NCBI GenBank assembly: GCA_021234155.1 | Contig: JAJEKV010000018.1 | Location: 17,861,213 to 17,925,212 of the forward strand | Direction: 5' to 3' | Source of the DNA: Isoetes taiwanensis | Taxonomy: Eukaryota > Streptophyta > Lycopodiopsida > Isoetales > Isoetaceae | DNA length: 64,000 nucleotides | Notes under the pieces: generated by a model | Seen by the model: only the letters and a program-made list of their open reading frames with translations | Told to the model about the DNA's origin: nothing | The model's database searches: none | Position numbers and translations under genes: made by a program | Shown here: in pieces, positions 2,710 through 45,605 of the stretch | Position numbering within the stretch: position 1 is the first letter of the stretch | How the letters are laid out: the number at the start of each line of letters is the position of its first letter

Positions 2710-4407
2710 CTAGTAATGGTGCCCAGCGTTGCTGGGCATAAGTTGGGAATCTGTGTGGACGAAAACCTATTCAGCTCAGATTCTTTTTCAAAATCTAATA
2801 TAATTTTTCCCTTTTCCCCCTCTCTTTTCCTTTTTACTTTTCTTTTTCCCATAGACTTTGCAACCTTTTCTTATTTTCCCTTACCCTTTTTCTCCTTTTC
2901 TCACCTTTACTTCTTACCCTTCTCACGGTGCTCTTTTTCCTTTCCCTTTCCCCCTCGCCTATTCTATTCCTTTTTCTATTTCCTTTTATCTTTTTCCTTT
3001 TCCTTTTCTCCGTCCTTTCCTTTTTCCTCTTACCTTTCTTTTATTCCTTTTCCCTTTTCCCTTTCATCGTTTTTCCTTTTCCCTTCCCCTTTTCCTTTTC
3101 CCTTTTCCCTTTTCCCTTTTCCCTTTCATCGTTTTTCCTTTTCCCTTCCCCTCTTCCTTTTCCTTTTCCCTTTCATCGTTTTTCCTTTTCCCTTACCCTT
3201 TTCCTTTTCCCTTTTTCCCTTTCATCGTTTTTCCTTTTCCCTTCCCCTTTTCCGTTTCCCTTTTCCCTTTTCTCTTTCATCGTTTTTTCTTTTCCCTTCC
3301 CCTTTTCCTTTTCCTTTTCCCTTTTCCCTTTTCCTTTCATCATTTTTTCCTTTTCCCTTCCCTTTTCCTTTTCCCTTTTCCTTTTCCCCTTTTCCCTTTT
3401 CCCTTTCATCTTTTTTTCTTTTCCCTTCCCCTTTTCCTTTTCCCTTTTCCCTTTCCCTTTTCCCTTTTTCCTTTCATCTTTTTTCCTTTTCCCTTCCCTT
3501 TTTCTTTTCCCTTTTCCCTTTCATCGTTTTTCCCCTTTTCCTTTTTTTCCCTTTTTCCTTTCATTTTTTTTTTCTTTTCCCTTTTCCTTTCATCGTTTTC
3601 CCTTTTCCTTTTTCCCTTTTCCCTTTCATTGTTTTTCCTTTTCCTTTCCCTTTCCCTTTTCCTTTTCCCCTTTCCCTTTTCCCTTTCATCGTTTTTCCTT
3701 TTCCCTTCCCCTTTCCCTTTTCCTTTTCCCTTTTCCCTTTTCCTTTGCCTTTTTCCTTTTATCGTTTTTCCTTTTCCCTTCCCCTTTTCCGGTTTCCCTT
3801 TTCCCTTTTCCCTTTCATCGTTTTTCCTTTTCCCTTCCCCTTTCCGTTTCCTTTTCCCTTTTTCTCTTTCATCGCTTTTTCCTTTTCCCTTCCCTTTTCC
3901 TTTTTCCTTTTTTCCTTTCATCATTTTTCCTTTTCCCTTCCCCTTTTCCCTTCCCCTTTTCCCTTTCATCGTTTTTTCCTTTTCCTTCCCTTTTCCTTTT
4001 CTCTTTTCCCTTTCATCTTTTTTCCTTTTCCCTTCCCCTTTTCCTTTTCCCTTTTCCCTTTCATCTTTTTCCCTTTTCCCTTCCCCTTTCCTTTTGTTTT
4101 TTCGCTTTCATCGTTTTCCCTTTTTCTTTTTCCCTTTTCCCTTTCATCGTTTTTCCTTTTCCCTTTCCTTTTCCTTTTCCCCTTTTCCCTTTTCCCTTTC
4201 ATCATTTTTTCCTTTTCCCTTCCCCTTTTCCTTTTCCCTTTTCCCTTTTCCTTTTCCTTTTCCCTTTCATATTGAAGCCATAGTCAAGATGAAATTTTAG
4301 TTGAAGACACGCACACATCATCTCCACCATTGGTCAATCAAATCCTCGACCGTCCGATTTAGGGGACCGTTCACAACGGACAAACGGTATAATTTTATAA
4401 TATAAGA
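2710..4407 (-). mobile_element. Helitron (non-autonomous), polypurine-minisatellite type, copy D
   Basis: On the minus strand the element starts TCTTATATTATAAAATTATA (4407 downwards) and ends with hairpin GCCCAGC-AAC-GCTGGGC, then ACCATTACTAG (2710). It therefore has the Helitron hallmarks: 5' TC, 3' hairpin a few bases before CTRR, and insertion between A and T without target duplication. The empty site is preserved twice in the window (junctions 21185/21186 and 58161/58162): joining the flanks 'taaatatta' and 'tagtatctatat' recreates those sequences exactly. It is 1698 bp, carries no Rep/helicase gene, and about 86% of it is a purine/pyrimidine minisatellite. Copy C (43916-45605) is the same element. 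Confidence 0.93.
2805..4269 (+). repeat. Polypyrimidine minisatellite inside Helitron D
   Basis: About 1.46 kb made almost wholly of CCTTTTCCC-type pyrimidine runs, punctuated every 30-70 bases (often about 50) by 'tttcatcgttttt' or close variants. Roughly 25 such punctuation units can be counted. The pyrimidine strand has almost no A outside the 'catc' motif, so stop codons are absent in all three forward frames. The resulting 450-520-residue Phe/Ser/Pro/Leu reading frames are composition artefacts, not genes. Confidence 0.95.
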
Positions 4408-4559
4408 TAGTATCTATATACACTTTGCTATTTGCTAATGAATGACCATTAGTTTATAAATGAAGATGTTAAAGCTATTGATGCCAGCGTGGCAATTCTT
4501 GCGAATTTGGCCGTCTTGGCCGGTCTTCACCTCGATCTCGATCATCTTTAGCATGGCAT
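4408..4559 (-). pseudogene. Class III peroxidase, C-terminal fragment
   Basis: After the Helitron, repeat Q continues and then runs into about 90 bases (4470-4559) that match the last codons of the peroxidase exon 4 at 21247-21338: the 'cttgcgaatttggccgtctt' and 'atcatctttagcatggcat' blocks. Homology stops abruptly at 4559, where short 'agtgtataacat' repeats and then LINE sequence begin. It is a third, truncated peroxidase copy in the same orientation as the one at 21.2-22.5 kb. It cannot be functional. Confidence 0.85.
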
Positions 4560-4649
4560 AGTGTATAACATAGTGTATAACATCTTAGCCATAGTGTATA
4601 ACATTCACAAATTCTGAGCATAATAAAATTAGCCACAAATTACTCATTA
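4560..4649. repeat. Short tandem 'agtgtataacat' repeats at a LINE junction
   Basis: Three to four copies of 'agtgtataacat' lie at 4558-4612. They resemble the 'gtgtataaaatcattgc' sequence that opens the RT segment at 4656. They probably arose at the 5' junction of the truncated LINE by slippage or microhomology. 'aaattagccacaaa' at about 4627-4640 resembles 'aaattagcctcaaaa' just after the LINE 3' end (about 6917), a possible target-site duplication. Confidence 0.45.
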
Positions 4650-6916
4650 TGCGTAGTGTATAAAATCATTGCTAAGGCTTTGGCTGAGAGGCTTAAGCCA
4701 GTACTAGTTCACACCATTAGTGCAGAGCAGTCTGGTTTTATACCTCAGCGGAATATTCTTCATAATGTGGCTGCTACTTTTGAGGGAGTGCATTGGGCTC
4801 GTAGGATGAGGCAGCCCCTTGTTTTTCTTAAAATTTGGATTTTGCCAAGGCTTATGACAGTGTCGGTGTGAGTTCTTGGCAGATATGATCTGAGCCTTTG
4901 GGTGCGGGCCTAGTTTGTGGAAACGGTTATGAAGCTGCACGTGTCTGCTAGGGCGATAGTGTGGTGTCAGGGTGAGACCTCTTCAATCTTCTCTGTGGGC
5001 CGAGGCATTAGGCAGGGATGTCCGTTGGCCCCTTCACATTCACTATAGTGGCGAAGCTCTCGCGGCTTTTTTGGTGGCAATTCTTGCGACAATTTGGTGC
5101 AAGGTCTCCGCATGGATGATGGGTCGCGCCAGCGAGGTTTCGCGGTCGATTTCGCGGATGATACATTCCTCTTTCTTCATGCAAATGAGTCCAATCTCGA
5201 GCTGACCAAGAATATTTTGGATGCCTTTTCTTTAACCGGGATGCTTGCTTAAGCGGTCGGAAGTGCTCGGCCATGTGGGCATGTGGGTACTTGGAGGAAC
5301 CTCCTCCCTGGCGTGGTTGAGTCGGTTTTCACGGGCTCTAACACCGCCACCACGGTGCCAAAGCGCTAGGCATACCATTTGGCTTGGACATTAATGCTAG
5401 GGCAATTTGAAGGAGACATTACGAGAATCTTAAGCGACATTTGAATTGGTGGAGGGAAGTAAAACTCACCATGGTGGTAGGATTTCGATAGCCAAGTCGG
5501 TGCTCTGTAGCACTCATGTTCTGTGACCTCTGCATACTTGGCCCGAGTAAAGTGTGGTTAAGGAGTTGGATGACACCATTACGCAATTTTGTTTTGGGAG
5601 GGAATGAGGAGGGGGCTACAGTGAAGGTGCATGGTGGAAGTGTGTGCGTCCCATGACCGGTGAGGGGCTTGGGTATGCTTGATGTGTCATTGCACCACGA
5701 AGGTTCCGTGTCGAATTCATCGGCGGTTGTTGCGGGAGCAACAATCCCGTGTTTGGCTCTGTTAGCCGCGGTCTCTTCGTCACTCTATTGTGTTTAGGAA
5801 GCCCGGCTATTAAAGGCCGGTTATTTCGTGGGCTCTATTTGAGGATTTTGCGGCCATTCCCTCATGCTTAAGCCTTTTCTTAAAGGGCTTTCAAGGCACG
5901 GAAGGTGGTCAAGGTTCTCTTTTCATTGGATCCTAGCAGGTGTATGGTAGCCTCATCGCCCTTTCTCTGGGTACCCTTGGACTCTGCATCTCCCTTGGCC
6001 TCTTCCCTACACCCAGGTACTCAGTGCCGATGGATTGCTGCAGGGGTAACATCCATCCGTGACTAGTATTGGGAGGGCCATCTGGCGCCGTGGGAGTTTT
6101 TTAGGGAGAGATTTGGCCTTCGGCGGTGGGACATACAAACTTGGGCTAGAATTGCCAATGCTATTCCATTGCAGTTGTCTTCTCAAGTCAATCGCGTTTG
6201 GAAGTCGCATAGTGGACTTGATGCATCTCGGTTTGTAGCATCGACTTATGGGCTCCTGGCGCTTCAGGACCGCGTTTGCCCGGCCGGATAAGTGGCCGCT
6301 TAAGCTTCGGGGAGTAAGTGGCCCGCCATGTGGAAGTGGGCGTGGAATACATTGCCTCCTCCTAAAATCAGAGTACCCTTTTGTGGCGGATCTTGCACCA
6401 TAGCCTCGGGGTGAATGTTGAGTCCACGGGTTCAAGCCTCTGCAGCGAAACATGCCCTTTATGTGGGAGGCGGCGTGAGACCATTGAGCACTTGCTTTGT
6501 GCTATGCACCGGAGGTAAAGGCGGCTTGGCCCGGGTGAGAGCTCTCTTTGGGACTTCACTATGCAAAATCGGAAGATTCTCTTGGGAGTCCTTCCTAGTA
6601 GGTGGGCGTGGGCGGCGGCGTTTCATTTATGCGAGCTTGGCTTTTGTGGCTGATTTGGAAAAGACGGAGAGCGAAGGTCTTTCAGAATGCGGTGCTTAGC
6701 CCTTTTCGGTTGGTTCCAATCTTGAGGCATAAGTTGTGGCAGGCTTACCAAGTCTCCAGCTTGTCTGGCACAGTTAAGCGAGAAATTTGGTCGACATTCC
6801 TACAGATTGTGGATCATGATGGGCGCTTCATTTCTTAGCACCACACTTATCATTGTACTTGATCGCATTCTAGTGGTTTAATATATTCTTATATTCTTCA
6901 AAAAAAAAGAAAAAAG
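4650..6916 (+). mobile_element. L1-type LINE, 5'-truncated and degenerate
   Basis: The element opens inside the reverse transcriptase: 4656-4871 encodes YKIIAKALAERLKPVL followed by a QSGFIPQRNI-like motif, typical of the finger/palm of plant L1 RTs. The frame is broken repeatedly after that. Near the 3' end (about 6420-6520) another frame reads CPLCGRRRETIEHLLC, the zf-RVT zinc-binding domain that ends plant L1 ORF2 proteins. An A-rich tail (about 6899-6917) closes the element. No endonuclease or ORF1 is present. It is a dead copy of the same family as the minus-strand LINE at 7363-13150. Confidence 0.85.
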
Positions 6917-7362
6917 AAATTAGCCTCAAAACATTCACGATTTATGGAGTAACTTTTGTGAACCATTATACTATGTACAAAATTCTCTTATAAACCACAA
7001 TTAGTTCTAAAAACCATTATAGAATTGATACCACCATTCATAACCATATGACAAACTATTATTAGTTTTACCAAACCACTATGGCATGTGTTTTCTCCTG
7101 TCAAATAAATTCATGAATAAAAACCCACATATATCATGGTTTCTAGATGATGTGATACTAGTTAAATATATTAGTTCATTTTGGGGGCCTTGTGCATGAG
7201 GACCTCTGCGAGGTGTCGCTAGCTAGACATAGAACTTGAAGGCGGGCCGATGTCGTTGATATGAATCCGTGCGCTTCTATCTTAATCCCGCCGATGTTGT
7301 AATCCATCTTTTATGGAATCGAGAGCATGGTTTCTTCATGATCGAAAGGATCGGGGGGCGTC
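6917..7362. other. Unassigned sequence between two LINEs
   Basis: AT-rich to about 7190, then a more GC-rich stretch (7190-7362) that may be a LINE 3' UTR remnant. No reading frame or RNA gene is recognisable. Confidence 0.35.
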
Positions 7363-9299
7363 GTTTTTTTTTTGAAGAAGCTGTGTCATCAATATATTAA
7401 AAGAATGGTAATGTTACAAAGCAAGTGAGGAGGAAGGGAAGCGCCCCAAAGAGGCAGTGATACCTCGACACTCCATAACAAACTCACGGAAAAGCGCAAC
7501 TCTACTGGCTTTGTACAAACAGACCATCACCATCTACAACACCCAAGAAGTCCAGCCAAATGGCAAACTTCCGCTCTACTAATCCGGGAACACGAGAAAG
7601 CTTTGAAATAGCTTGTACACGAGTCGAGGAATCGGAGAGAGCTGCGGTAGCTGAATCCACGAAAGATCCCAAGCCATTGCTGCTTCCAAATCAGCCACAC
7701 CAACCAAACCACGCCACCCGGATGCAAAGGCGTCTTTGCCGCAAAATGACCAAGCACCGGGATACACATGAAGCGACAAGCTGGTTTGGTTAGTCAATCT
7801 CACACGAAGCGAGCCCTAACCCAATCCCATGCGACACGCAAGTGAGGGCATAAAACCGGCACAATGCTCCACGGTCTCACGATGAAGGCCACAACAAAGG
7901 GCGAGAGGGCTCACACCGCCTAAGCCCGACTCACAAGGGCATTCACCACGATCTGGCCGGTGCACCACTTGCCCGCGAAGCACCCTAACCGATTGGGGGA
8001 AGTGAGCTCCATGTCCACGCCCAAACCGCGCCATCGAGAACTGGAAGGCTGCGAGAGACCACTTGCACGAAGGCAAAGTGTGTCATGAATAACCGGCACC
8101 GGTAAGAAGACCGCACAAAGCAAGAAGACACAACATCGGATGAACCTTCCAAACACCGCACCACCACATCATCACGAGGGACTATAGGTATGTGTAGCGG
8201 AATACTCCCCGCAGCGCTCCCGGATAGCGGTCACTTTGCCCCTCAAAAGCGAGCTCGAGAAAGAACTCCCATGAAGCTAGCTGACCACCCCAATACCAAT
8301 CCTCCAAGGTGAGCACGGCTGCTTGCCTCCAACGGGCTAGCGTCAGAGCATGCATGTGGCGACCAAGGGCAAGTCTTGCAGGGGGTAGAGGAACCCACAA
8401 GAAAGGAGAAGAGTGGTGATAAAGCGGAGGCATAATCTAGCTGGAAGAGCTCGCGACATGATCCCAAGCCCGCAACACCCCGTGAGAAAGGGGATGCATG
8501 TGGGAAAGGCGGGAGACCATACAGCGGTGCCGGGGCAACTCCACATGCACAGACGGCTTCCCAAATGCCACACAATGGCGAAGAGGCGCAACAACGGTGC
8601 CGCACCAGGAGAAGATGCTCCATCTGCGAGAATGCTCCAAACAAACTTGGAGACCAACACCTTAATATGCGCCAAATCCAGAATGGCCAAGCCCCCATCC
8701 TCCGGAGACACTTCCACCAAGCCACTTTAACAACCGCCCCTTCATCATCCCGCCCCACACAAAATTTGAACAATCTTATCCAAAGCACGTATCTTACCCT
8801 CGGGGAGCTAGCATCGCGGATCTTTGTATACATGAGTGCTACAAAGAAATCGACTTGGCAATAGTGATCCTACACCGCCATGGACAACTTGCTACCCTTC
8901 CACCAATTGAGGTGTTTACGCAGCCCCCCGCAAAATCTCATCCCACACCCTCCCCATGGAAACATCCCTCCAAAGGGAATACCCAGCGACTTAGTACACA
9001 CATTACACAGGAAGCACCTTCCAAGGGAATAGAGCCAAACACGGGAGGCTGGTCATTTGGGCCCATAATGCGAGACACTTACCCCAATTCGGAAGAATGC
9101 ACGAGGCTAAGGAGAAAGTATCAATAAACCCTTCACATTTAGCAAATTCCTCTCCTCGCCACCAAGAAGAGGAAAGTGTCATCGGCAAAGCTGGTTAATA
9201 ATCTCTTTGGCTACCATCCTACATCCGAAGCCCATCCACCACTCCTCCTCCTTTGCGGGTAAAAACAAGCGAGGCGATTGCCTCCGCCACAATCGTAAA

Positions 9300-9889
9300 C
9301 AAAAGCGCGCCAAAGGGCACCTCGGCGCACCCCTACGCCTAAGGAGAAAAGGGGCGGAGGGTTCACCCCGCACACCACCGTAGCGTCTTTGACCTATGCA
9401 GCTTCATGGCTGTCTCACGTAAAGCGTGGACCACAACCCAACGCTAACATCATGGCAGACAAGAACTCCCAACGGACACCATCGTAAGCTTTGGCAAAGT
9501 CAAGCTTAAGATAGGCAATGCCTTGACCTGTTCTTCTGGCCCAATAAAGGCCCTCATAAGGCTGCGGCAACATTAGTCAAAATATTCCTCCGGGGAACAA
9601 ACCCGGACTGCACCTTACTAATGGAAGAAGTCAACACCGGCTTCAACTTCTCTGCCAGGGCTTTCGCAATAATCTTGTACACAGAGGACAACAAGGAGAT
9701 AGGCCTCCAATCATTAATGGTAGAAGGCTGCTTAACCTTAGGAATCAAGGAAATGCATGCGGTATTCAAGATCCTATCCATTTGAGAAGACTGCGGCAAC
9801 TCAAGATACACACAGTACCGCAGACTCACCCAGCCCACTCCCAATAAGTATGAAAGAACTCCACGGGGATGCCATCCAGCCCAGGACAT
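9300..9889 (-). pseudogene. LINE reverse transcriptase fragment
   Basis: The open stretch 9554-9889 (minus) contains ISLIPKVKQPSTINDWRPIS, then YKIIAKALAEKLKPVL and QSGFVPRRNI, the conserved N-terminal RT blocks of plant L1 ORF2. It is highly similar to the 4656-4871 segment, so both belong to one family. The catalytic YADD-containing region downstream is in broken frames. The protein would copy element RNA at a nicked target, but this copy cannot. Confidence 0.9.
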
Positions 9890-10396
9890 TTATCCTTGGC
9901 CATGCACATACATCTTGCAGCTAAATCCTCTCTAGAGAGCTCTGCTCCAAGCTCTCCATTTGGTGAGGCGGAGAATAGATGGCTTAGCGACCCCCAAAAC
10001 AAGCTCCTGCATCTCGCTCATAGGGAAGAGTGCGATGTCACGAAAAACTCGAGAAATGGGCATGCACATACCTCTGCAAATCAGCGGGATCCTCAAAAGT
10101 CCATCCATCGGGCAAAGCAAGGGGCGTCATAGATCTTTGCATATCGCCCGCTTGCCCTAGTTGCTCTCGAAGAACACCAAGCGAACTTGTGTCCCCCTCC
10201 TTCAACAACCGGATAATGGCGCCTTCACCGCGTGCCTCCCACACTTTAACCTGCTCGAGCAACAATACGCTACAACTTTGCATTCTCCCTAGGCCGCCGA
10301 AAGGTGCAGGCGAATCTTCTCCAACTCGATAGAGCATGCAACTCCTGCGCTCTGCCTTTGCGGCCGCACGCCTACCAAAGACCTTGGCAAAGCGCT

Positions 10397-11164
10397 TCAC
10401 CCAGCCAACGCGGTCACCATACCGGACATACCCTTGAGAGATGAAAAGGTATCAAGCCACAACTCTAACTTTGGTAGAAATCGCATCGGCCTGGCGCCCG
10501 GGTGTTCAAGCGGAACATACGCAGATCCTAGAGGGCGAGAGGCAACCGCACCACGATTTGGACAAAACACGAGGGTAATGATCAGAAATGGAGGTAGATA
10601 GAATGTTACTCGGTAGCAAAGAGGGCACACCATCCGGTGTGCATGGGGAAGCATAACACGGTCATGCCTAGCATGGTATGCCCGGCCCGCACCAATCTGC
10701 CTATTACAATAGGTGAAAGACAAGTCCCCATGGACCTCAACCAAGGCCAAATCACGCAACAAAGCGAGACCACTTTGGTCCCTCTCAAATCCATGCACAA
10801 CACGGGTTCCGGAACCGGGCGATCCTCTACTCGCTCTACCATATTGAAGTCCCCTAACAACAACCAAGCGACACGCAACCCACCAAGGGCTCGCTTAACT
10901 TATTTCTTTAAAGCGTGGCCCATAAAGCACCCGGTGAGAAGGTTGATTAGGGGCATAAACATTAACAATCCCCCACTCTTGCCCTCCCTCCAACCACTTA
11001 ATTATTGCCCACCAAACCAAAACATGCCGGCTGCGAGTGCGTGACACGCACATCCATCCTCCAAGCAATAAGAGTACCCCCACTAGCTGGCCAGAAGAAG
11101 AAGCAATAGAGGCAAAGCGCCTACCAACCATATTCATGAGCCTAGACATATCACCCTGTGACAC
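10397..11164 (-). pseudogene. LINE AP-endonuclease domain remnant
   Basis: Two overlapping frames hold endonuclease landmarks: GIVNVYAPNQPSHR (about 10960) and, farther downstream, WLLLGDFNMVE (about 10850). 'NVYAPN' and 'GDFN' are core motifs of the APE-type endonuclease that nicks target DNA in L1 elements. The two motifs lie in different frames, so at least one frameshift separates them. It lies directly upstream of the RT region, as expected. Confidence 0.85.
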
Positions 11165-13050: not shown

Positions 13051-13249
13051 GAAATCAGCTGTTTGCGGCAACAAACCACATGCAAAACAGCTGATGCTAT
13101 ACATTTCCGGAAAGAGCTCGGAACAAGCTTTCCAATGAGCCTAAACAAAGCTGAAATACGATGCGGATAAAGAGATATCGTCGATCAAAGTTTGTACGTA
13201 ACCGAACCAGCCAATTCGACCGCCGCTAAGCGAAAGTGTTCGCCCATGA

Positions 13250-13347
13250 CTACCTATATTACTCTTCCTTCCCACAAATTTTGTTTTTTGTTCCACCACC
13301 TCTTCAAATTGTTACTAAAGCCCGGCAACGCCGGGCACCATAACTAG
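13250..13347 (+). mobile_element. Helitron 3' end G (GCCCGGC hairpin, CTAG)
   Basis: Hairpin GCCCGGC-AAC-GCCGGGC (13320-13336) is followed by ACCATAACTAG ending at 13347 and a T. Compared with the other copies (GCCCAGC...GCTGGGC), both stem arms changed together, which supports a conserved structure. The right flank 'tatgttttaaagcctaatc' is continuous with repeat c at 61515-61480 (reverse), where the empty site reads 'acattacta|tatgtttta'. I did not find the matching 5' TC end, so the element's length is unknown. Confidence 0.8.
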
Positions 13348-20529: not shown

Positions 20530-21246
20530 CCCAATTTAATTGAATGATGGTTTAACTGATCATTTGTCAACTACTGGCCAAACACTGAGAGAAGCATCTT
20601 TATTTATTGAGTTACTGTAGTGATAATGGAATGAGACTTTTAGATTGAGTAATGCCTATAATAATAATGAAGACTATGGTGAATTTTTGTGTGTGTCTAT
20701 TTGGAGTTATTCAAACAAGTTGTTTATAGGAATGATATTTCACTATCTAATATATTTTGTTACACAATTTAACTAATCATTTGTCACCTATTGGCCAAAC
20801 ACTAAGAGGAGCATCTTTATTTATTGAGTTACTGCAGTGGTAATGGAATGAGACTTTTAGATTGTGAAATGCCTCTACATGTATATGTAAATTCTCTTCC
20901 TAATATGAACTGTGAAAGGACTATGGAATGTTTAAAATATACCATCATCGGACCGAGTATCAAATTAACAAAACGAAAATTTTCATGTTATTTTGGGCCC
21001 TAAAATGGATCATGCATGCAATTGTAAATTGAGGGCCATTTTTTTAATCGATCCCCCAAAAGTGGCAAAATTTAAGGAAGGAATCTTTTTTGTGGTTCAA
21101 ACACAGATGATTAGTGCATTTGCTAGGTCACATCGTTGGCTATTCAAAGAAATGGCAAGGCAACCTTGCATCAAATTAAATATTATAGTATCTATATACA
21201 GTTTGCTATTTGCTAATGAATGACCATTAGTTTATGAATGAAGATA
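20530..21246 (+). repeat. Repeat Q (intact) with empty site for Helitron D
   Basis: This is the 3' flank of the peroxidase gene. It matches 2275-2709 plus 4408-4470 with the Helitron removed: 'aaatatta|tagtatctatat' at 21185/21186 is the uninterrupted target. A second, partial copy of the same repeat begins within it (20545-20640 and again 20740-20860). The reverse-strand homologue is at about 58111-58480. Confidence 0.9.
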
Positions 21247-22488
<1,242 letters not shown>

Positions 22489-23049
22489 TTCCGCTGCCAA
22501 TATATTAAATCAGAAAAGGCTGAAGGACGCTTAGAATATCCCGAAAAGATGAAATGGTGGAAGAAGCGCTGTGCTTGTTAGTTAAATGCGGCTGTGCTTG
22601 TTAGTTAGAAAAGGCTGAAGGACGCTCAGAATATCCAGAAAAGATGAAATGCTTGAAGAAGCGCTGTGCTGTGCTTGTTAGTTAAATGCGGCATCCATTT
22701 ATATATGCTTTGCGCAGCCAAGTCAGTGTCGTCATCCGAACAAACTCAATTGTCACCAGTGCACATCTTAGCTCAAACTCAAACTGACTTGACAATTTCA
22801 AAACGCCGCGTAGCTTATTAGTCTCCGTCTATATTTTGTCCATTTCATTGGCCACGTTTTAAAAGTGCAGCAAACAGCCTCCACATTTGCTACACCAACA
22901 AACTTTCGTGTTGTGCTCATTCAAACTAGAAGGGGCTTAAAATTGTGCTAAATTTCTCCAAGATAAACTAGAAATCTTGTACACCACACAACTTTAGCAT
23001 GACAACCCATTTTCATTCTACTACAATTGCATAGCATAAAAATATTTAA
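22489..23049 (-). promoter_or_regulatory. Peroxidase 5' UTR and promoter, cut by a Helitron
   Basis: Reading upstream from the start codon: a tandem duplication of about 90 bp in the presumed 5' UTR (22513-22604 and 22605-22690; 'gctgaaggacgctcagaatat' in each), then a TATA-type element 'tatataaat' (about 22695-22704) about 210 bp upstream of the ATG, then sequence shared with 56340-56660. Parts of this promoter also occur without a gene at 38400-38600 and 39905-40053. Homology to the right copy ends about 23020, near Helitron A, which starts at 23050, 562 bp upstream of the ATG. Confidence 0.7.
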
Positions 23050-25814
23050 TCCTTCCTATATTATAATGTTATAGGGTGTTGCATCAAGCCCTAGATCCAA
23101 TGGCCTCGATTTGATTGATGTAATTGAACGATGGGGATTAACTAAAAAGGACAACAATTTTTGTTACTCTATCGAGCCTACTTAACCCCTGCTTATGGCT
23201 CCGAACGTAGCTATGACTGAAGCTTTAGCTTTGGCAATGGGGGCGTAAGACCCAGTGATTGGTATTGTTCTGTCAGGCTTCTAGCAACGGGTTCTAACAC
23301 TCGGCTATGCCTATGGCGATGTGCAACGGGCTAGATAAAGCAAAAAGGGCGGCAGTTTTAGCGAGGTTTGAACTGGCCAGATGCATGTAACTCTGCTATG
23401 GCGGACTAATCTGAAACAGATGTCAACAAAAGATAGATTGGCCATAGCCATTGTATATCACACTTCAAGGTCGTGGGCGAATGCTATGTCCGGCCTCCTC
23501 CAGTTCGTTTGCAACATTTAGGGCATTATTTAAACGTGGCACATGGATTTGGACGAATGTCAGTGGCAACAATAGAGCCGGTTCAGCAAAATCTGCTAAG
23601 GATGGTGGTTGTTATCCTTGCAAATAAAAATGAGCAAAGCTTAACTGTTGCATTATGAAATGGAGTAAATGGGGAAACATTAGTCTCAACACATTCTATT
23701 CCAAGTTAAAGTACTTGGCCACTCAGGTAAGAATTTGTATTTCCTTTCGATTGGTTGGTAGTCTACACCAACGTATCGTTTTCTCCTTTTCTTATATGAA
23801 TTTCATGCATGATGTGATGGTTGGTGTAGGTGCTTGAGCTGGCCAGAAATGGGGTCAGGTTTAATAAGAACAGCTCTCGCTCTTGGCATCTTGAGGTTCT
23901 GGACTTTTGCATCTCATATTACACTACACATTTGAGGAATTGAGGTTAGTCTTCTTTGATATGTTATATAGGATTTCTCTTGCAAATACTATAATGCAAT
24001 GCATCTAATGCTAATAGTTAGAATCATAACTGGTGGTTTTATTTGGAGATGCATAGATTGCCAGGTAGATCCATATTAGTTAGTCTTCTCAACTATGTCT
24101 CTTCATGTTGTAGATGGATCTACATTTCTCTTTTCTGCTGGTATGATTTCTGCATCATGATTTCATTCATTGGTGCAATGCTAATACAACAACAAATTTG
24201 AGCCATACGAAATCTACGCCAAAACTAGGTCTGCAGAGGTGTATGATCTGCTGCTTTGATACAGTATGCTTGCTTGATCTACAGGACTTTTATAAAAGCA
24301 TAGTATGTAGGTCCTTCTGTAAAGGTCTATTTCTCCTTCTAGAGTTAGAAACGGCTCCATTTGAAAAATTTGTGAGGATCAGACTGTTAAATAAAAAAGT
24401 GTTGTTTTGGTTCATGTCGATGTTCATTTGCCTCATGAAAACATCATTGTTTAAGTCTACAAATGTTTTGCCAGCATATTTTTGCGCCAAAAATTGTAGC
24501 CAAAACATCATTGTTTACGTGATCCCTACAAATGTCTTGCCAGCATATTCTGCCTAAAAAATGGGAGCCAATATCAGTTAATAAACTGTTCTAGGCACCA
24601 TATAAAAGTTATGCATTATCTTTGCAAAAGAGAAGTGAGAATTTGTAAGTTGCATTTTGGTCAGACTCAAATGAGAATCTAGGTACCATGTTGAGTTACA
24701 TATGAGGTAGGGAAAGATGTAACATTTGTATATTTGACATTGTAGTCATGATGATGAGTTAAAGAAAGACTGGAACGTTATTTTCTGAACGGTATTCTAA
24801 ATTTGCTTAGGTAGTTATGGGGACACATGCATGCATTGGTATACATGTATGGTACGGTTCTTTGAAGCGGTTCTTGACCATAAAAAAACTTGATTTGCAT
24901 GGTAAGATCTAACTATTCTATTCTGAGATTGACATACACTCCATTCATCATAAATAAGTAGGTTTCCATGGGGAGCATATAGGAGTAAACCAAAGTTTTC
25001 AAACAACTTAACCAGAGATGCAAACTATACCTATTGCACTGGTGGTTATGTGATGAAAAAAGCCAGCAATTTTGCAATGCCTATAATTTGTCCATTTTAA
25101 AATGCTGTAATGTTTTTTATGCTAATTCCATTTGGAGGTATTCTTAAATGAAATTAAATTGTTAGGGCAATCGATACCCTGTTCATGCAAGTTCACAACC
25201 TCCACACATGTTCACATGTTCATGCAACTTTGCAACCTCCTCCACACATATTCACAAGATTACTTAAATTGTCTAGGCAATCGGTACTTGCTTTATGCAA
25301 CTTCCCAACCCTCAAGAGATATTTACAAGATAACTTTACAACCTCCTCAATGAATATCCACAAGATATATCGAACAAGATAACTTCACAACCTCCTCAAT
25401 AAATATTCACAAGTTATGCACAACGTGAAAAGAAACAATGTCAACAAATATATATAAAATAAACCATTACTATAGACGACCTTTAATGAGAACTCATTTG
25501 CCAAGACCTTTGCCCATGCTCCCAACAATGACGCCTGAAATTCCTTAGAAGATATAATTCAATATCCCTTTATAGCCCCTCCATTTTGCTTTTGTCCCAG
25601 AATTGTGCATTGGTTTGCCTAAAGACAAAACACCGGATCTCTTATGAGTAAGGATGTACTACCTCTTCAATGTGTAATTTTCAAGATGTCAACAATTAAA
25701 TGATATTTTGAAAATTTTTGTTATAATAAAAAGTTTACTGCACGCTTTTCCCATTGCAATAAAACATTTACAGATTTCCAACTGATGCCCAGCAACGTTG
25801 GGCACCATTACTAG
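23050..25814 (+). mobile_element. Helitron A (non-autonomous), 2.77 kb
   Basis: Starts TCCTTCCTATATTATAATG and ends with hairpin GCCCAGC-AAC-GTTGGGC plus ACCATTACTAG. The flanks are A (23049) and T (25815). The flanks 'gcataaaaatatttaa' and 'ttttatataaaa' are joined, uninterrupted, in the opposite-strand homologue at 54507/54508, so both borders are exact. No Rep/helicase frame is present. The interior holds a 68-bp duplication (24435-24550, 'tgccagcatatt' twice), unknown short frames and a 3' minisatellite. The subterminal 60 bp resembles Helitron B ('ctgca-gc-tt-ccattgc'). It sits in the promoter region of the minus-strand peroxidase. Confidence 0.93.
25175..25435 (+). repeat. Minisatellite near the 3' end of Helitron A
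   Basis: Irregular repeats of 'caacctcctc(aat/cac)a-atattcacaagata' with 'gcaactt' variants, at least six recognisable units of 30-50 bp. Internal minisatellites near the 3' terminus are common in Helitrons and related elements, and Helitron B has a different array in the same relative position. Confidence 0.75.
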
Positions 25815-34200: not shown

Positions 34201-34344
34201 TTTGTAAATGTTAATGTTGTTTTTATGAAGAAAAAATTCTATTCAACATTCAATTCAAAAAACAAAAAATGTTTGAGTCCCATTTTCAGTCTAAGTCCCA
34301 AAATTCGAGATTTGTCCCACTTTAATTAAATACGACTTCCATGT

Positions 34345-34640: not shown

Positions 34641-34644
34641 ATAA

Positions 34645-37175: not shown

Positions 37176-38060
37176 AAATTGGTTGCATAGCAGATGACGC
37201 AGATTTGTATCATGCTGCAGATAAGTGCATTTCAAAAGTGGACATGCAAGAATAGTAGATTTCTTTCAGCAAATTCTATATCTTAGCAATGTCTTTCAAG
37301 TTGAAACTCCCTTTTGTATTATGAAGAATTAGCTGGATAAGGAATAAGATTTTGAAACTTTTTTAAAATGTCTATTTGAGCAAAATATGTGCAACACAAA
37401 TTCAGCATTTACTGATGTTATTTATGTGCCTTTACTTTTGGTTATTGTGTGTTTCGCCATACAGGTTCATGTTAAAAAATGAGGAAGTTGTTGGTGGTAG
37501 CATAGACCGCTGCTTATGGTTGAACTTGAGCTTTTCTTTCAAACCTTCATCAGGCTAGGACATCTATTGCATCACATTTTGTAGCAATGCAGGGTTATGA
37601 GACGCCTTTGTCTTTATAGTTTTATACAATTTTAATACAACAAAATCAACTATAACACTTGAAATCTTTGTCTTTGTAGTTTTATAAGATCAATTGAAGA
37701 ACATTCTGAAATCTCCAGTTTAAGTAAAGATCCAACTAAAGAACATAGGCATTTGTTAAGTGCACCGTGGTTTAATCAACCATCTTAAGAAGAAAAAAAT
37801 TAACATTGCAATTTCAAATAACCAAAGTGTTCTATTGGGTGGTTTGGGTGATGTGTATATATATACATCATTGATGTTCATCCACAAATTTTGTTTTGAA
37901 ATATGCTGATACAAGTGGCAACTTGAATCACTTTGCTTTTTCAATTTGAAAAAAAAAAGGTTCCACAACGGACTCGCTTAAAGTATCATCACCACTTAAT
38001 TATACATATGCATGTGAAACATATTCTAGATAAATCACACATTCAAGGTTTAGATAAATC
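37176..38060. other. Unassigned AT-rich sequence
   Basis: Contains the near-duplicate 'gaaatctttgtctttgtagttttata' (37600-37690). No gene recognised. Confidence 0.4.
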
Positions 38061-38625
38061 ACACATATAGTGTGTGGTGTGCGAGAAATTCTTGTGCCAA
38101 ACACGTCATTTAATACTTATAAGTCACAAAGTAGAATACGAAGTAGTATATTGAAAATGGGTTCTCATGCTAAAGTTGTGTGGTGTACATCATGGAAAGT
38201 GGGTCGCTGGTTCTGCCTCCGAAATGGAAAACAGCAGTGTCATTCTGCTCAAGCGATCATTTGCAATCGATTAACAGGGAAAAAATGCTGGCGCTCCCCA
38301 CTTACCATGATGTGGGGGGACGAAACAGGGTCAATGATTCCAGGACCCGCTCCCCCAGTCGCAGGACCCCCTGGAATCTCCCCTGTTTCCATCGCCTATA
38401 CAAGATTTCTAGTTTATCTTGGAGAAATGTAGCACAATTTTAAGCCCCTTCTAGTTTGAACGAGCACAACACGAAAGTTTGTTGGTGTAGCAAATGTGGA
38501 GGTTGTTTCGACTTTTAAAACGTGGCCAATGAAATGGACAAAATATAGACGGAGACTAATAAGCTACACGGCGTTTTGAAATTGTCAGTCAGTTTGATCA
38601 TAAAGAACATGCAGACCACACGTTT
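38061..38625 (+). promoter_or_regulatory. Orphan peroxidase-promoter fragment 1
   Basis: 38400-38600 matches the promoter upstream of the peroxidase copies (56370-56570; reverse at 22790-23000): 'caagatttctagtttatctt', 'gagcacaacacgaaagtttg', 'ggccaatgaaatggacaaaa', 'agacggagactaataagcta'. It breaks off at 'gtcagtcagtttga', with no gene after it. 38270-38370 ('cttaccatgatg-ggggacga') is also repeated at 40420-40495. Confidence 0.75.
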
Positions 38626-39110
38626 GAGTTATACTTACTAACCACATGATTACCCTTGGAGCTCTATAGATGATCTGCGAGATTAAGGCCTTTACTTTTG
38701 AAGGAAGGCAAATTTTTCAAACATTCCACATCCTCACTAATACATGTCCATCAACCTAAACATTCCATGGCTTCGGCAAATTTTAGTTGAGAATCAAGCT
38801 CTCCAAGATGTCTCAAATACATTTTTAGCTTCTGTTTGATGTCTTCTATAAAGCTAATAAATTTAAGCTTCCACCAAAATGTAGAAAGCTAATAAATCTA
38901 AGCTTCCACCAATAGTAGTAGGTTTGCGATTGGAAATGTTCATTGTCTTTTTAAATTGAGGGTGTGCATTATTTATTGTGAAACTCAAATTTTTATTGCA
39001 ACATTATTATTTGTTCTACTTTTAAATTTAATCGGCATTTACCTCGTTTTATTATTAAATTTTAAACTTATGTCTGACGAAAGCCCAGCAATGCTGGGCA
39101 CTTTTTCTAG
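38626..39110 (+). mobile_element. Helitron 3' end F
   Basis: Hairpin GCCCAGC-AAT-GCTGGGC (39083-39099) followed by ACTTTTTCTAG ending at 39110 and a T. The right flank 'tatttata(ta)agtcaca' corresponds to the uninterrupted repeat 'catttaa|tatttataagtcac' at 56287-56310. The 5' end is not evident; homology to the 40.2-kb repeat breaks near 38690 ('gatgatctgcgaga'), so the element may begin near there or be truncated. Confidence 0.7.
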
Positions 39111-40420
39111 TATTTATATAAGTCACATAGTCGAATACGAAGTAGTAGAATGAAAATGGGTTCTCATGCTAAAGTAAATTGTGTGGTTCGATGCAAACCT
39201 AGTCTGAACTGCCAGTCTGTTTGAGACATTGTAGACGCGAAACAAGTTGTATATTCCTCGCTCTTTAACGTCATCCGGTGGTATCGCAACCTCTTGTGAG
39301 TTGCAACCCTAACTCTACTTTCAGTGTAGGGCAACACTCCATTCTTTGCATTTCCAGACCACGTTGTCCATGTTATGCACCCAGCCAGGCATCTTCTTTG
39401 CGCCAATTCCACCATGCTCTTCCTTCCCTGGACAATTCCAATCAATGTGGAAGAGGGAAGGAGGAAGGGCAAGCCTGCAATTCTAGAAAGATTTCAATGG
39501 ATATCTAATTTTAATGGGCATCGATGCAAAAATACAGAAATTTAACAGTCGAAAGTGAAATATGATTACATGGCATACTCGTGGCATGCACATGGCATAG
39601 CTAGAATCGCAGCAAAGTGTGCACCGCGGGTTAGGCAACCCTGCTAATAAAACTAGGACCTAAACCGAAGATCAAACGATCAAGTCAAATCTTAAATTAT
39701 CTGCAATATGTACTGCATGAAAACACGTTTTCTATAACCAAACCAATGATTGGATGGCCAAAGATTAGATTGCCACACAACCAAACATAAAGTAGAATAC
39801 AAAGTAGTATAATGAAAATGAGTAGGGATGCTAAAGTTGTGTGGTGTGCGAGTAATTCTGGTGCCAACCAGGTCATATAATATTTATAAGTCACAAAGTA
39901 GAATACGAAGTATACGCGGCGTTTTGAAATTGTCAGTCAGTTTGAGTTTGAGCTATGTGCACTGGTGACAATTGAGTTTGTTCGGATGACGACACTGACT
40001 TGGCTGCGCAAAGCATATAAATGGATGCCGCATTTAACTAACAAGCTCAAATACTTCTCTCACCCTATTCTAAGCAGGTTGATCATCATCACACTCTATA
40101 AAGCAGTGTTCAACTAACTCATCTGATGTGATCATACATAGGACATGCAGACCACACGTTCGAGTTATACTCACTAACCACGTGATATACCCTATATAGA
40201 TGATCTGCGAGAGTAAGGTGTGTGGTGTGCGAGAAATTCTTGTGCCAAACACGTAGTCACAAAGTAGAATACGAAGTAGTAGAATGAAAATGGGTTCTCA
40301 TGCTAAAGTTGTGTGGTGTACAAGATTTCTAGTTTATCTTGGGGAAATTTAGCACAATTTTAAGCCCCTTTCTAGTTTGAATGAGCACAACACGAAAGTT
40401 TGTTGGTACAAAATGCTTCG
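39111..40420 (+). repeat. Repeat block with orphan peroxidase-promoter fragment 2
   Basis: 39290-39900 is a direct copy of 55660-56300 ('ttgcaaccctaactctactt', 'atatctaattttaatgg', 'gattggatggccaaagatta'). 39905-40053 then holds the proximal peroxidase promoter, including 'gcatataaatggatgccgca', but breaks at 'catttaactaacaagc' before the 5' UTR and gene. 40070-40120 recurs at 54830-54880. 40260-40400 repeats the distal promoter again. Confidence 0.75.
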
Positions 40421-40930
40421 GTAAAAAATGTTGGTGCTCCCTACTTACCATGATGGGGGGACGAAACAGGATCAGTGATTCCAAGACCCGCTCCCGACTC
40501 CCGCCGGTCATTGAAGTGTACTTACAGAATAAGCTCCACCAAGGGACTGTGGGGAAAGGATGAAAAGGGAAAGGAAAAAATTCGTCAAAAAAAGGAAAGG
40601 AAAAAAGGGAAAGGGAAGGAAAGTGAAGGGAGACGGGGGTTAAAAAAAGAAAAAACAAAGAAGGAAAAAAGAAGATGTGTAGGAAAAATAAGAAAAATGG
40701 GAAAAGGAAAAAGGAAAGTGTGTAGGGAAACAAGGGAAAATGAAAATGCAGAATAGAGCAAAAGGCAAAGGTAAGAGGAAGGGTATCGAATGCACAAAAG
40801 CCTCTTAAAGCACAGCAATGTCGGGCTTGGTTTCTATCATATTAGATTTATGAAAAGGAATTTGAGCTGAATAGGTTTCGTCCACACGGATTCCCAACTT
40901 ATGCCCAGCAACGCTGGGCACCATTACTAG
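40421..40930 (+). mobile_element. Helitron E, polypurine type, 5' end not found
   Basis: The 3' end has hairpin GCCCAGC-AAC-GCTGGGC (40903-40919) then ACCATTACTAG to 40930, flanked by T. The preceding 'gaataggtttcgtccacacg' and 'attcccaactt' are shared with Helitrons C and D, as is a purine-rich tract, here only about 200 bp (40548-40750). No TCTTATATTATAA start is visible, so the copy is probably 5'-truncated into repeat sequence (about 40420-40540). Confidence 0.8.
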
Positions 40931-41359
40931 TGTTAACAAGAATGAAGAGAAGGCTTGAGTCGTGGAACCATTCTAGCGGCATCAACACCCTGTTCTTACC
41001 TAGAGATTTGTTTGTGCTGCCAAATTTATTACCTTGTTGGAGAAGTTCAAGGCATTTCACAGCAATTCGGATCCATGATCCTTTTGAGATGCAGGTGCAA
41101 TTGCCACCACAGCAATTGCCAGCACACACGATGTCTACCTCTATATGCCAAGCACAGGAACGGTTTCGAGATAAGTTCTTTTCATCTTGAATCAAGTGGC
41201 ATGGCTTGTTTGTTCTAAGTCAACAAATAAATCATGTTTGTTGCACATGTATATGGTTTGCTTGTGTGCATGTATTTGCGAGTTGTATAGTTTTTTTTTA
41301 TTTATTTATTTAACTAGCTCGCTTAGGACCCTGAAGAGAGCCATGGAGCATGCAAATCA
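40931..41359 (+). other. Exon-like sequence between Helitrons
   Basis: An open stretch from 40931 to 41190 reads TRMKRRLESWNHSSGINTLF, then LPRDLFVLPNLLPCWRSS, and stops at 41190. The leucine spacing is suggestive of a repeat-containing protein, but I cannot assign a family. It could be a host gene fragment. The 41280-41315 part is T/TTTA-rich. Confidence 0.35.
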
Positions 41360-43367
41360 TCTTATATTATAATGTTTTGCTGTAATTCTTGGATCCAGCC
41401 CTAAATTGGAAGGCGAGGATTTATTGCCTAATTGGACGATGAGGATTTAACCAAAAAAAAAAGAAGGGCATTGCCCTATTGAAACTTACGGCAACACAGC
41501 AGAGGGACGAGTCGTCGTGGAATAGAGCAGAGAACGGGTCGACAATTCTATGGTTCTGCTCAAACAATCAAGAACATTACATATCTTTGGAGCCAATCGA
41601 AAGCTGCAACAGAAGTCGGAGCTACAAATTTGGCATGATTGAGATAGGTATTAACATCTTAGTGCTTTTGAGCCAAAATCCATGGAAGCCATCATTCATA
41701 GACTCAAAAACACAAGTGAAGGGCTTTAGTCGCGTGTTGCTTCACGCTCTTCACAAAACAGGGTTCTTGCTATTTACGTATTTTTCGATTTCGCCTAATC
41801 TCCTTTATGTAGGATTTATCGCCCGATGGACAAATGCAGTATTTTTTTTTTGAAGCGACTATGGCGGCATCATGTTAGTTAGAGCGGTTTTGATAGGGTA
41901 CGCATTTCTATGAGCCCCTCGATGCAACCATTCATGATGCACAACATGAAGTAAGCTATTTTGAACTCTTTTTGTATTAAAATATCATGCTTGGGGTATT
42001 GGAGGAGATTTATTAGGTATCCAACCGCTATACATGACTATCAAACATAGATTAGCGTGGATTAGCGATTGCCTAAGTAGGTTGATGCCACCAAACATAT
42101 TTAAGGCAATTTTGTCTTTCTAAGTTAGGGTTCTTACCTTTGATTTTTTTTGGGAATGATCTAATATTTCTAAATGATGTGACACGGTATGTACGTAAAT
42201 TTAGGATTTGATAGATGTTTACGTTTATGTTTATGCCAATTGAACAAATGATTGTCTTACCAAATATTTGAGCAAAGTCACGAGATGTTCTCCCCGATCA
42301 TTATCATGTACAATAGAAACCGCTTTTGATGGACTACGTGTTGTTAATATTGTATGCTTTCCTTTTCAAACGCCTTCAGGCAATACTTTTTAAAGATTAC
42401 AAAGTTTAGTTTGTGCTTAAATTTTTGTGGTGCAAAGACATTGGATCAGGGGAAAGAAGAATATAAACAACATTTTCAAGGTAAAATTGTTTACCTCTTA
42501 TGGTTGGTGATTTTAGGGTAAAAGTTAAGCGATCCTCCTCCTTTGTATAACATTGATTGATGGGTCTTGCCACCACCTTTGTCCGAAAACTTTTCACAAA
42601 GAAATCGGATAAAAGGAGGTAATTTCTTTTCTAGACCAATTGATAACCACATTATGTGGGGAATACAAGGCTAACATTATTGTATTACTATCGTAGCTTG
42701 ATTCTATGATGCAAAACGGTTCCAAGCCAAATAATATGGAGGGCCAAATGGAATTAACAGCAATGATGTGTAGAGCCAAATTATGAAGAGTACTTTGCAA
42801 CTGAAATAATTCTCTAATTGGTCATTTGATGGAAATTCGGGAATAGAATAGCGAAGGATTGCCTATGCGAGAGACATAATACAAAGCTTGGGAACTTAAA
42901 TCATAGGGTGAGGTTTTTGTAGAGGGACAACATCAGGACCAAACTCTTCTTCTTGGCGTTCCCATCAATTATATATTTTAGGAATTTACGCAACTCTAGA
43001 TCTATTGGGCATATGACTACCAGCTATAAATCTCATGCATAATTTATCTCATTACGCCATCAGGGCCCTTTTAAGAATTATACCAAGGCTCTACGTTCTT
43101 GAGTGACTTGCCAAGTCCAAATTTAAGATGGTTTTACGGTGTGTAAGGAGAGCACTTGGTTTAATGGGCAACAAATATGCCCTTATTTTATGTGGAATGT
43201 TGCAATCACAACGTCAAATCAATGTATCATCCGCAATATATATTAAACTTTGAAAGGTACACAATGTTAATAGGAACTTACTACGGTTGGGAAAACCATG
43301 CACAAGGAATCGTGCACTACATCACTCTCACAATAACACCGACAACTTATAAATGTTACTTTTTACA

Positions 43368-43506
43368 ATGTTAGTGCTAGAGATCTGAAACACTTAGTGC
43401 ATTGCATATTTGGCAATGTTACCTTCACAATGTTAGTGCTAGAGATACTAAACACTTAGTGCATTGCATCATTCATAATGTTAGTGCTAGAGATACCAAA
43501 CACTTA
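43368..43506 (+). repeat. Minisatellite near the 3' end of Helitron B
   Basis: Three units of about 55-60 bp, each with 'aatgttagtgctagagat' followed by 'aaacacttagtgcattgcat' variants. The relative position is the same as the minisatellite of Helitron A, with an unrelated unit. Confidence 0.85.
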
Positions 43507-43619
43507 TTGCATAATGGAATCTGGGGAACATAGTAGCATTTGACAACCCAAGTGTAGACACTATGTGCAACAAGAAAAAAAGTCACAAAAATACACACAT
43601 CTTTTCCTTTTTGTTGTAA

Positions 43620-43802
43620 ATGCCAATGGAATTTGAGAGCATCGTAGCAGTTAAGAACATCAACCAACAAGACCTACAGAAAAAAATAGCAGATCTCAAA
43701 ATTGTTATGAACAAGCACAAGATTATTCTACTCAAAGCTCTCAGAGATACTGATGCAACATTATTTAACATCAAGGAGCTAGGTTCCTTCAAACATTGTT
43801 AA
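43620..43802 (+). CDS. Small open frame in Helitron B, possible captured coding scrap
   Basis: Sixty codons starting MPMEFESIVAVKNINQQ, with a heptad-like LQKKIADLKIVMNKHKIILL segment predicted to form a coiled coil. It lies 120 bp before the element's end. Nothing shows it is expressed, and I cannot name a parent gene. It might be a piece of a host exon picked up by the Helitron, or chance. Confidence 0.25.
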   Translation: MPMEFESIVAVKNINQQDLQKKIADLKIVMNKHKIILLKALRDTDATLFNIKELGSFKHC

Positions 43803-43915
43803 ACCTTTGAAAAAAATTTATTACGGTTAAATTATTACTGCATGCATTTCTCATTGCGACCAAAACGTGTTTAGGCTCCCAACTTATGCCCAGCAACGCT
43901 GGGCACTATTACTAG

Positions 43916-45605
43916 TCTTATATTATAAAATTATACCGTTTGTCCGTTGTGAACGGTCCCCTAAATCGGACGGTCGAGGATTTGATTGACCAATGGTGGA
44001 GATGATGTGTGCGTGTCTTCAACTAAAATTTCATCTTGACTATGGCTTCAATATGAAAGGGAAAAGGAAAAAGGAAAGGGAAAAGGGAAAAGGAAAAGGG
44101 GAAGGAAAGAAAAAAAATGATGAAAGGGAAAAGGGAAAAGGGAAAAGGAAAATGGAAAGGGAAAAGGAAAAACGATGAAAGGGGAAAAGGGAAAAAGAAA
44201 AAGGGAAAAACGATGAAAGCGAAAAAACAAAAGGAAAGGGGAAGGGAAAAGGGAAAAAGATGAAAGGGAAAAGGGAAAAGGAAAAGGGTAAGGGAAAAGG
44301 AAAAACGATGAAAGGGAAAAGAGAAAAGGAAAAGGGAAGGGAAAAGGAAAAAGCGATGAAAAGGAAAAAGGAAAGGGGAAAGGGGGAAGGGGAAAAGGAA
44401 AAATGATGAAAGAAGGAAAAAGGGAAAAGGGAAAAGGAAGGGAAAAGGAAAAACGATGAAAGAGAAAAGGGAAAAGGGAAACGGAAAAGGGAAGGGAAAA
44501 GGAAAACGATGAAAGGGAAAAGGGAAAAGGGAAGCGGAAAAGGGAAGGGAAAAGGAAAACGATAAAAGGAAAAAGGCAAAGGAAAAGGGAAAAGGGAAAA
44601 GGAAAAAGGAAAAGGGGAAAGGAAAAGGAAAAACGATGAAAGGGAAAGGGGAAAAGGGGAAAAGGAAAAGGGAAAGGAAAAGGGAAAAGGAAAAACAATG
44701 AGGAAAGGGGAAAAAGGAAAAGGGAAAACGATGAAAGGGAAAAGGAAAAGAAAAAACAATGAAAGGAAAAGGAAAAGGAAAAGGGAAACGATGAAAGGGA
44801 AAAGGGAAAAGAAAAGGGGGAAGGGAAAAGGAAAAAAGATGAAAGGAAAAGGAAAAGCGGAAAAAGGGAAAAGGGGAAAAGGAAAAGGGGAAGGAAAAAG
44901 AAAAACGATGAAAGGGAAAAGGGAAAAGGGAAAAAGGGAAAAGGGAAAAGGAAAAAGGGAAGGGAAAAGGAAAAAAGATGAAAGGGAAAAGGGAAAAGGA
45001 AAAGGGAAAAGGAAAAGGAAAAGGGAAAAAGAAAAAACGATGAAAAAAAAAGGAAAAGGGAAAGAAAAGGGAAGGGGGGAAAAGGAAAAAGCGATGAAAG
45101 GGAAAAGGGGAAAAGGAAAAGGGGAAGGAAAAAGGACAAACGATGAAAGGGGAAAAGGAAAAGGAAGAGGGAAGGGAAAAGGAAAAACGATGAAAGGGAA
45201 AAGGGAAAAGGGAAAAGGAAAAGGGGAAGGGAAAAGGAAAAACGATGAAAGGGAAAAGGGAAAAGGAATAAAAGAAAGGTAAGAGGAAAAAGGAAAGGAC
45301 GGAGAAAAGGAAAAAGGAAAAAGATAAAAGGAAATAGAAAAAGGAATAGAATAGGCGAGGGGGAAAGGGAAAGGAAAAAGAGCACCGTGAGAAGGGTAAG
45401 AAGTAAAGGTGAGAAAAGGAGAAAAAGGGTAAGGGAAAATAAGAAAAGGTTGCAAAGTCTATGGGAAAAAGAAAAGTAAAAAGGAAAAGAGAGGGGGAAA
45501 AGGGAAAAATTATATTAGATTTTGAAAAGAATCGAAAATGAATAGGTTTTAGATCCACACATTTCCCAACTTATGCCCAAAGAACAGGCTGGGCACCATT
45601 ACTAG
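43916..45605 (+). mobile_element. Helitron C (non-autonomous), polypurine-minisatellite type
   Basis: Begins TCTTATATTATAAAATTATA immediately after the CTAG of Helitron B and ends at ACCATTACTAG (45605), followed by T. It is the same element as Helitron D (2710-4407) in the opposite orientation: identical 125-bp 5' leader ('gtttgtccgttgtgaacggt', 'tgatgtgtgcgtgtcttcaa'), the same purine tract and the same 3' end. Its terminal hairpin is altered: 'gcccaaagaacaggctgggc' keeps only a 5-bp stem with a larger loop. Length 1690 bp against 1698. Confidence 0.93.
44055..45520 (+). repeat. Polypurine minisatellite inside Helitron C
   Basis: About 1.47 kb of GGGAAAAGG-type purine runs interrupted by 'acgatgaaa' variants every 30-70 bases. 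The mirror-like purine/pyrimidine strand asymmetry extends over the entire tract. The long open frames on the minus strand (450-510 residues of Phe, Ser, Pro and Leu) and the Lys/Glu/Gly/Arg-rich frames on the plus strand reflect composition only. Confidence 0.95.

Follow-up and report, generated by a model that had tools for sequence, protein, structure and literature searches.

Why should two unlike transposable elements stand exactly end to end in the genome of Isoetes taiwanensis, the last base of one followed directly by the first base of the other? The question is raised by a 64,000-nucleotide stretch (G000:C996:17861213-17925212, part of a 1.66-Gb assembly; hereafter the window) that holds several Helitrons, two of them forming such a head-to-tail pair. 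We propose, with a probability of about 0.8, that these are canonical Helitrons mobilised in trans by RepHel, the Rep/helicase transposase of related elements, and that resident 5′ ends are insertion hot spots, opened as if transposition were starting there. The further idea that any resident relative offers the transposase a target in its left end, at the positions where a cut would start transposition and on both strands, is tentative and in our judgment falls somewhat short of even odds.

Insertions at resident left ends

The pair that raises the question comprises the following features, numbered from the first base of the window:

41360..43915, plus strand: X, left member of the head-to-tail pair, 2,556 bp, both ends found
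43916..45605, plus strand: Y, right member of the pair, 1,690 bp, assigned to the family of copy A (described below) by both ends and by identity to that copy
43912..43919, plus strand: CTAG|TCTT, exact end-to-start junction of two different elements (X and Y), read from the sequence

X and Y have no long match to each other, and their junction at 43915|43916 is one of 179 exact CTAG|TC head-to-tail junctions genome-wide; exact head-to-head junctions number zero in the same genome. Insertion immediately before the TC of a resident element (position −1) still takes place between A and T, so that CTAG|TC junctions can arise without a breach of the A|T rule.

First, how common are the ends themselves? 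The genome search with the 3′ end that the preliminary description had called for returned the exact motif followed by T in 7,205 places and by another base in 31 (7,236 in total), and reversed 3′-pattern controls returned no match. The 5′ motif TCTTATATTATAA gave 4,331 genome matches (with a non-G base at −20) versus 278 for its reversed control. Among the 100 matches listed for this motif there are 91 distinct left flanks: A precedes the motif in 77 of them, T in 10 and C in 2, and in the remaining 2 a CTAG end stands there, its G being the preceding base.

Second, where in a resident left end do newcomers lie? On the same strand, the 100 listed of 362 matches place them at −1 in 37 cases, +5 in 11, +3 in 6 and +7 in 2. 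On the opposite strand, 88 matches have a 3′ end followed by the reversed left-end motif, with the cut at +13 in 54 and at +10 in 19; excluded from the 88 as 5′-end hits were 10 reading TAGAATATAAGA and 5 differing otherwise. The RepHel element L015, our candidate autonomous partner, itself lies within a resident 5′ end, which it interrupts at base +5 (TCTTA^TATTATAATG): ...ACCA-TCTTA stands before it and TATTATAATGTTTTAGTGC... after it. When joined, these flanks agree with the intact left end L068 in 43 of 44 bases, and the base before them is A. More broadly, 8 of 36 RepHel 3′ ends have another Helitron terminus no more than 15 bp away: two abut a left end exactly, one sits at +5, three are opposite-strand cases at +10/+13, one is 2 bp away and one is tail-to-tail at 4 bp. 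The same-strand internal label that a loose regular expression gave to L032 is probably false, and genome counts are used instead. Finally, 15 of the 91 left flanks contain a piece of another left end, namely its initial 3-10 bases, in some cases stacked (TCTTA-TCTTA). Instead of being new insertions, these may be variants of the 5′ end passed on by inheritance; for the +3 type, seen in 7 flanks, a T|T target would be required.

Taken as a pathway, RepHel would cut the left end at A|TC and the right end at CTAG|T, a chemistry modelled on Helraiser, and copies would be inserted at A|T without target duplication. In vitro, the Helraiser transposase cuts the top strand of its left end just ahead of TC and the bottom strand at an AT inside that end (PMC4778049; this and the other papers cited here are represented by excerpts). 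Since the hot positions share that strand pattern, we infer that resident left ends (A|TCTTATATTATAATG) are nicked or opened as for the start of transposition, at −1 (before TC) and +5 on the top strand and at +10 and +13 on the bottom strand, and that these sites may then serve as targets. Insertion at −1 in the same orientation would yield a CTAG|TC junction, such as the one at 43915|43916.

Copies, borders and empty sites in the window

The other Helitron copies, 3′ ends and uninterrupted target sites of the window are these:

2710..4407, minus strand: copy A, a non-autonomous Helitron of 1,698 bp that contains an array of purine-rich repeats, with flanks A...T; supported by its ends and by empty sites
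23050..25814, plus strand: copy D, non-autonomous Helitron, 2,765 bp, 5′ end TCCTTCCTATATTATAATG; supported by its ends and by an empty site
13320..13347, plus strand: 3′ end of a further copy, GCCCGGC subfamily; 3′ motif and an uninterrupted site for the right border
39083..39110, plus strand: 3′ end of a further copy, CTTTTTCTAG subfamily; 3′ motif and three uninterrupted sites for the right border
40903..40930, plus strand: 3′ end of a further copy; 3′ motif, and 81% identity of 40836-40931 to 45509-45606
21185..21186, minus strand: empty site for copy A, joined flanks uninterrupted
58161..58162, plus strand: empty site for copy A, joined flanks uninterrupted
54507..54508, minus strand: empty site for copy D, its left-hand match only ~25 bases long
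61515..61516, minus strand: uninterrupted target copy for the right border at 13347, by right-flank match, left base A

The seven 3′ ends named in the preliminary description (13347, 25814, 39110, 40930, 43915 and 45605 on the plus strand, 2710 on the minus) all lie at exactly those bases, with CTAG and then T. The 17-base hairpin attributed to all of them follows the strict motif in five (13347, 39110, 40930, 43915 and 2710-minus) and is imperfect in two, with one wobble at 25814 (GCCCAGC-AAC-GTTGGGC) and a disrupted stem at 45605 (GCCCAAAGAACAGGCTGGGC); the spacing from hairpin to CTAG, given as 10-11 bases, measures 7 bases. A loose form of the 3′ motif matches 7 times in the window versus 1 in 100 first-order Markov shuffles and a stricter form 6 times versus 0 in 100, and these counts, together with the genome-wide 3′-motif counts, rule out chance hairpins. 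Four 5′ starts are present as described, at 4407 (minus), 23050, 41360 and 43916, and all four begin with TC. The seven loci are thus seven 3′ ends, four of them with a 5′ start and three (13347, 39110 and 40930) known as 3′ ends only, for which a 5′ start was looked for within the window and not found.

The family to which these loci belong comprises several subfamilies. The copies at 4407-2710 and 43916-45605 are 93% identical along 1.7 kb, and the 13347 end is 93% identical along 45-55 bases to the ends of a second RepHel group (L011/L019). Purine-rich repeats (AAAAGGGAAAAGG, GATGAAAGGG; window 2785-4300 and 44000-45530) make up most of copies A and Y, and the long low-complexity open frames within them are probably meaningless.

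Do the borders withstand comparison with unoccupied sites? The joined flanks of copies A and D, claimed to occur uninterrupted elsewhere in the window, do so at the three sites listed above, and two-sided borders are proven by local empty sites for copies A and D only. For the right border at 39110, uninterrupted target copies lie at 38113/38114, 39880/39881 and 56293/56294. The empty sites of copy A have their source in a 2.1-kb inverted duplicate pair (20903-23024 and 56323-58448, 95% identity). Elsewhere, L156 (C1033:9554773-9554855) is an A-family copy whose 40-base left flank is identical to that of copy A in the window; host repeat and nested Helitron were probably duplicated together.

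The empty sites and the genome-wide T after CTAG bear out insertion at A|T without target duplication. Copies that depart from these bases, target duplications and terminal inverted repeats, the outcomes named in advance as refuting the description, were looked for and not seen; no terminal inverted repeats could be read from the ends (TCTTATATT... versus CTAGTAATGG... on the reverse strand), for which no dedicated search was run. A terminal-inverted-repeat transposon or a retroelement is ruled out, no such ends being present at the empty sites. Next to the pair, two minus-strand open frames at 45724-46961 (183 and 259 amino acids) resemble a reverse transcriptase of long interspersed nuclear elements, by eye only. 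Rfam gave 0 matches on the window, and ARAGORN found no tRNA there.

A candidate RepHel partner

Which element could have moved these copies? As foreseen, the window holds no Rep/helicase gene: tblastn with four RepHel proteins gave a single match there, at chance level (E 0.41). A profile search with Helitron_like_N scored 150 places among 1,813 candidates, and of these RepHel loci 12 were examined, at ~9.9 kb each. Five (L010, L011, L015, L019 and L020) have a family-like 3′ end downstream of RepHel, that of L020 with one base changed in the stem. The element expected elsewhere in the genome, encoding RepHel and sharing the termini, has its candidate on contig C1036, outside the window:

C1036:8550183-8558004, minus strand: L015, candidate autonomous element, 7,822 bp, with RepHel domains and family-type termini

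Pfam identifies in L015 both Helitron_like_N (HUH Rep; E 2.3e-61) and a PIF1 helicase (E 9.4e-59), and its protein carries HxH, YIYKY and Walker A motifs, which we presume to have their customary meaning. The 3′ end GCCCAGCAACGCTGGGCACCATTACTAG lies at C1036:8550183 and the 5′ start TCCTATATTATAATG at 8558004. An initial start at TCTTATCC was replaced by TCCTATATT at 8558004 because TCTTA belongs to the resident end that L015 splits. The first 60 bases of L015 are 83% identical to the window element at 41360, and its last 115-120 bases are 79% identical to copy D. The window copies, which lack a transposase, were most likely moved in trans by the RepHel of related elements, L015 being the candidate.

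The last 398 bp of L015 recur in 40 places listed, of which 36 end exactly at CTAG with T next in all 36; the other four (L063-L066) stop short of the terminus and were excluded from the flank counts. The 36 ends are not all independent, flanks being shared by L036/L041/L050/L054 and by L047/L060. The common flank of the former four (TACGAGAGAAGG...) could reflect duplication or a hot target. Both L015 and L020 carry a second, decayed terminator-like hairpin (CCCAGCAGCACTGGGCACTATAACTATG) upstream of the functional one, some 100 bp short of the RepHel 3′ end, as if a new 3′ end had been gained downstream. On C1018, the RepHel element L010 is followed head-to-tail by a 3.5-kb element (L021), the two being identical in their last 42 bases; a TCTTATATT element comes next, and the whole is likely an array of three. 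L158 and L159 (C1052 and C840) match the RuBisCO large subunit over the whole domain with no stops; they are either plastid contigs or plastid DNA that has entered the nuclear genome. A plastid-type large-subunit frame of 494 codons in the assembly indicates a green plant.

Competing explanations and known relatives

For the origin of head-to-tail Helitrons, the excerpted maize study (PMC2267711) leaves three routes in play, either order of insertion and the rolling-circle dimer, and each deserves to be weighed here. The alternative that a new copy joins behind a resident CTAG, using a G|T target where the transposase also cuts CTAG|T, would yield the same junctions, and in head-to-tail orientation only. 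It gains from the in vitro cutting of both right-end strands described for Helraiser (PMC4778049, in part) and from maize, for which the excerpt reports lines with the left element alone and none with the right alone (PMC2267711), a pattern that favours insertion behind a resident CTAG, or later excision. It nonetheless requires an exception to A|T, leaves the +5, +10 and +13 insertions inside resident left ends unexplained, and sits poorly with the rarity of close tail-to-tail pairs (within ~10 bp), found at 6 places, each counted on both strands. As the main source of these arrangements we consider it unlikely.

Could a plain preference for AT-rich DNA, combined with regional clustering of Helitrons, suffice, the terminus as such going unrecognised? 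Right flanks were drawn from 60 of the 100 listed 3′-motif places, 36 RepHel ends and 6 window ends (102 in all, 82 of them distinct and non-Helitron), and they show an asymmetric target preference, with an AT-rich right side peaking at bases 8-11 and a leave-one-out area under the curve of 0.87 versus window A|T sites. Mean AT content is 81% at right positions 2-11 (83 flanks) versus 67% on the left (22 flanks), and Helraiser has the same asymmetry, preferring AT-rich DNA most on the 3′ flank according to the excerpted report (PMC4778049). Under this target model 5′ ends do rank high, among the best 4-10% of A|T sites. With 7,236 insertions in a genome that has ~5,800 left ends, the −1 site would be expected to receive 0.15 insertions unweighted and 0.8 weighted, against the 179 observed; the weighted model likewise predicts about 1 per site, against 54 at +13 and 19 at +10. 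Regional clustering probably accounts for part of this excess, and that preference alone produced it seems to us improbable.

Dimers arising from missed termination on a circle are the most doubtful of the three explanations: tandem Helitrons have been reported (PMC5876387, in excerpt), and two of 11 junction loci, hand-picked from the 100 listed of 179, are same-element tandems (L077, 95.5% over 2,561 bp; L073, 98.8% over 1,283 bp), but the members of the window pair are unlike, as are those of seven of the 11, which show no likeness beyond their ends, and for such pairs a dimer is insufficient. Since unlike pairs prevail, most inspected junctions need two insertions; a minority, those joining two copies of one element, may on sequence grounds be rolling-circle dimers.

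Against insertion into resident left ends weigh, besides these two tandems and the maize lines, several further points. No −1 junction here gives the order of insertion, and the 73 opposite-strand insertions are known from their 3′ side alone. The +3 matches (TCT|TATATT) are T|T rather than A|T and may be 5′-end variants. Two more of the 11 inspected junctions pair purine-rich elements that are 66-69% alike. The expectation treats positions as independent and ignores Helitron clustering, so that the excess is overstated. The −1 junctions outnumber what scaling of the weighted model from +10 and +13 would give; some of them may have arisen by another route, with right-end targeting or dimers as probable contributors. 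As for the partner, seven of the 12 RepHel loci have no family-like 3′ end downstream (two of these seven contain N runs), and the 1,198-codon frame of L015 ends before a C-terminal part located further on, which may reflect an intron or a broken frame.

Even so, the strand and base counts over thousands of copies, together with L015 lying inside the first 15 bases of another copy, favour left-end insertion for many of these arrangements, and the targeting pattern suggests how 5′ ends diversify. If the left-end habit is true, it would produce head-to-tail arrays, split left ends and inherited stacked 5′ ends (TCTTA-TCTTA-...), the family building compound elements out of its own ends. A practical caution is that nested copies will be merged wherever elements are annotated from their terminal motifs.

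How does this compare with known systems? Judged by sequence features, the window elements are classed as canonical Helitrons (Helitron1), rolling-circle transposons forming a new family of a known kind: they have a TC start, CTAG with an upstream hairpin, an A|T target, no terminal inverted repeats and a RepHel relative, and their ends and targets do not show the asymmetric terminal inverted repeats or the T|A-type or T|T target of Helitron2/Helentron elements. The excerpts record a single maize pair standing side by side (PMC2267711) and bat copies that abut one another (PMC4778049), and one paper, with reference to others, notes that Helitrons tend to insert close to or within existing Helitrons (PMC3288121). 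What is added beyond such adjacent and nested Helitrons of maize and bats is base-level, strand-specific targeting of resident 5′ ends, which deserves a proper test; in the literature on terminus targeting, subscription maize surveys excluded, we found no strand- and base-resolved hot-spot map.

Plant Helitrons of maize and wheat (Xuan-Feng) are alike, as far as the excerpts go, in TC start, hairpin, CTAG, A|T target and RepHel and in their many non-autonomous, adjacent and nested copies (PMC2267711, PMC3288121, PMC13286980); the Isoetes family differs from them in having terminal sequences of its own, and its junctions and 5′-end insertions are counted here by strand and base across the whole genome. 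Helraiser/Helibat of bats, in the portions cited, shares CTAG joined to TC, copies abutting copies and an AT-rich preference strongest on the 3′ flank (PMC4778049, PMC5876387), in another host and with another sequence, and its internal AT is likened to +10/+13 at the level of strand pattern. For FoHeli of Fusarium, duplication of 5′ ends by self-insertion has been proposed much as here, although that element is described in the excerpt as Helitron2-like, its terminal inverted repeats being asymmetric and its target of the T|A type (PMC5148889).

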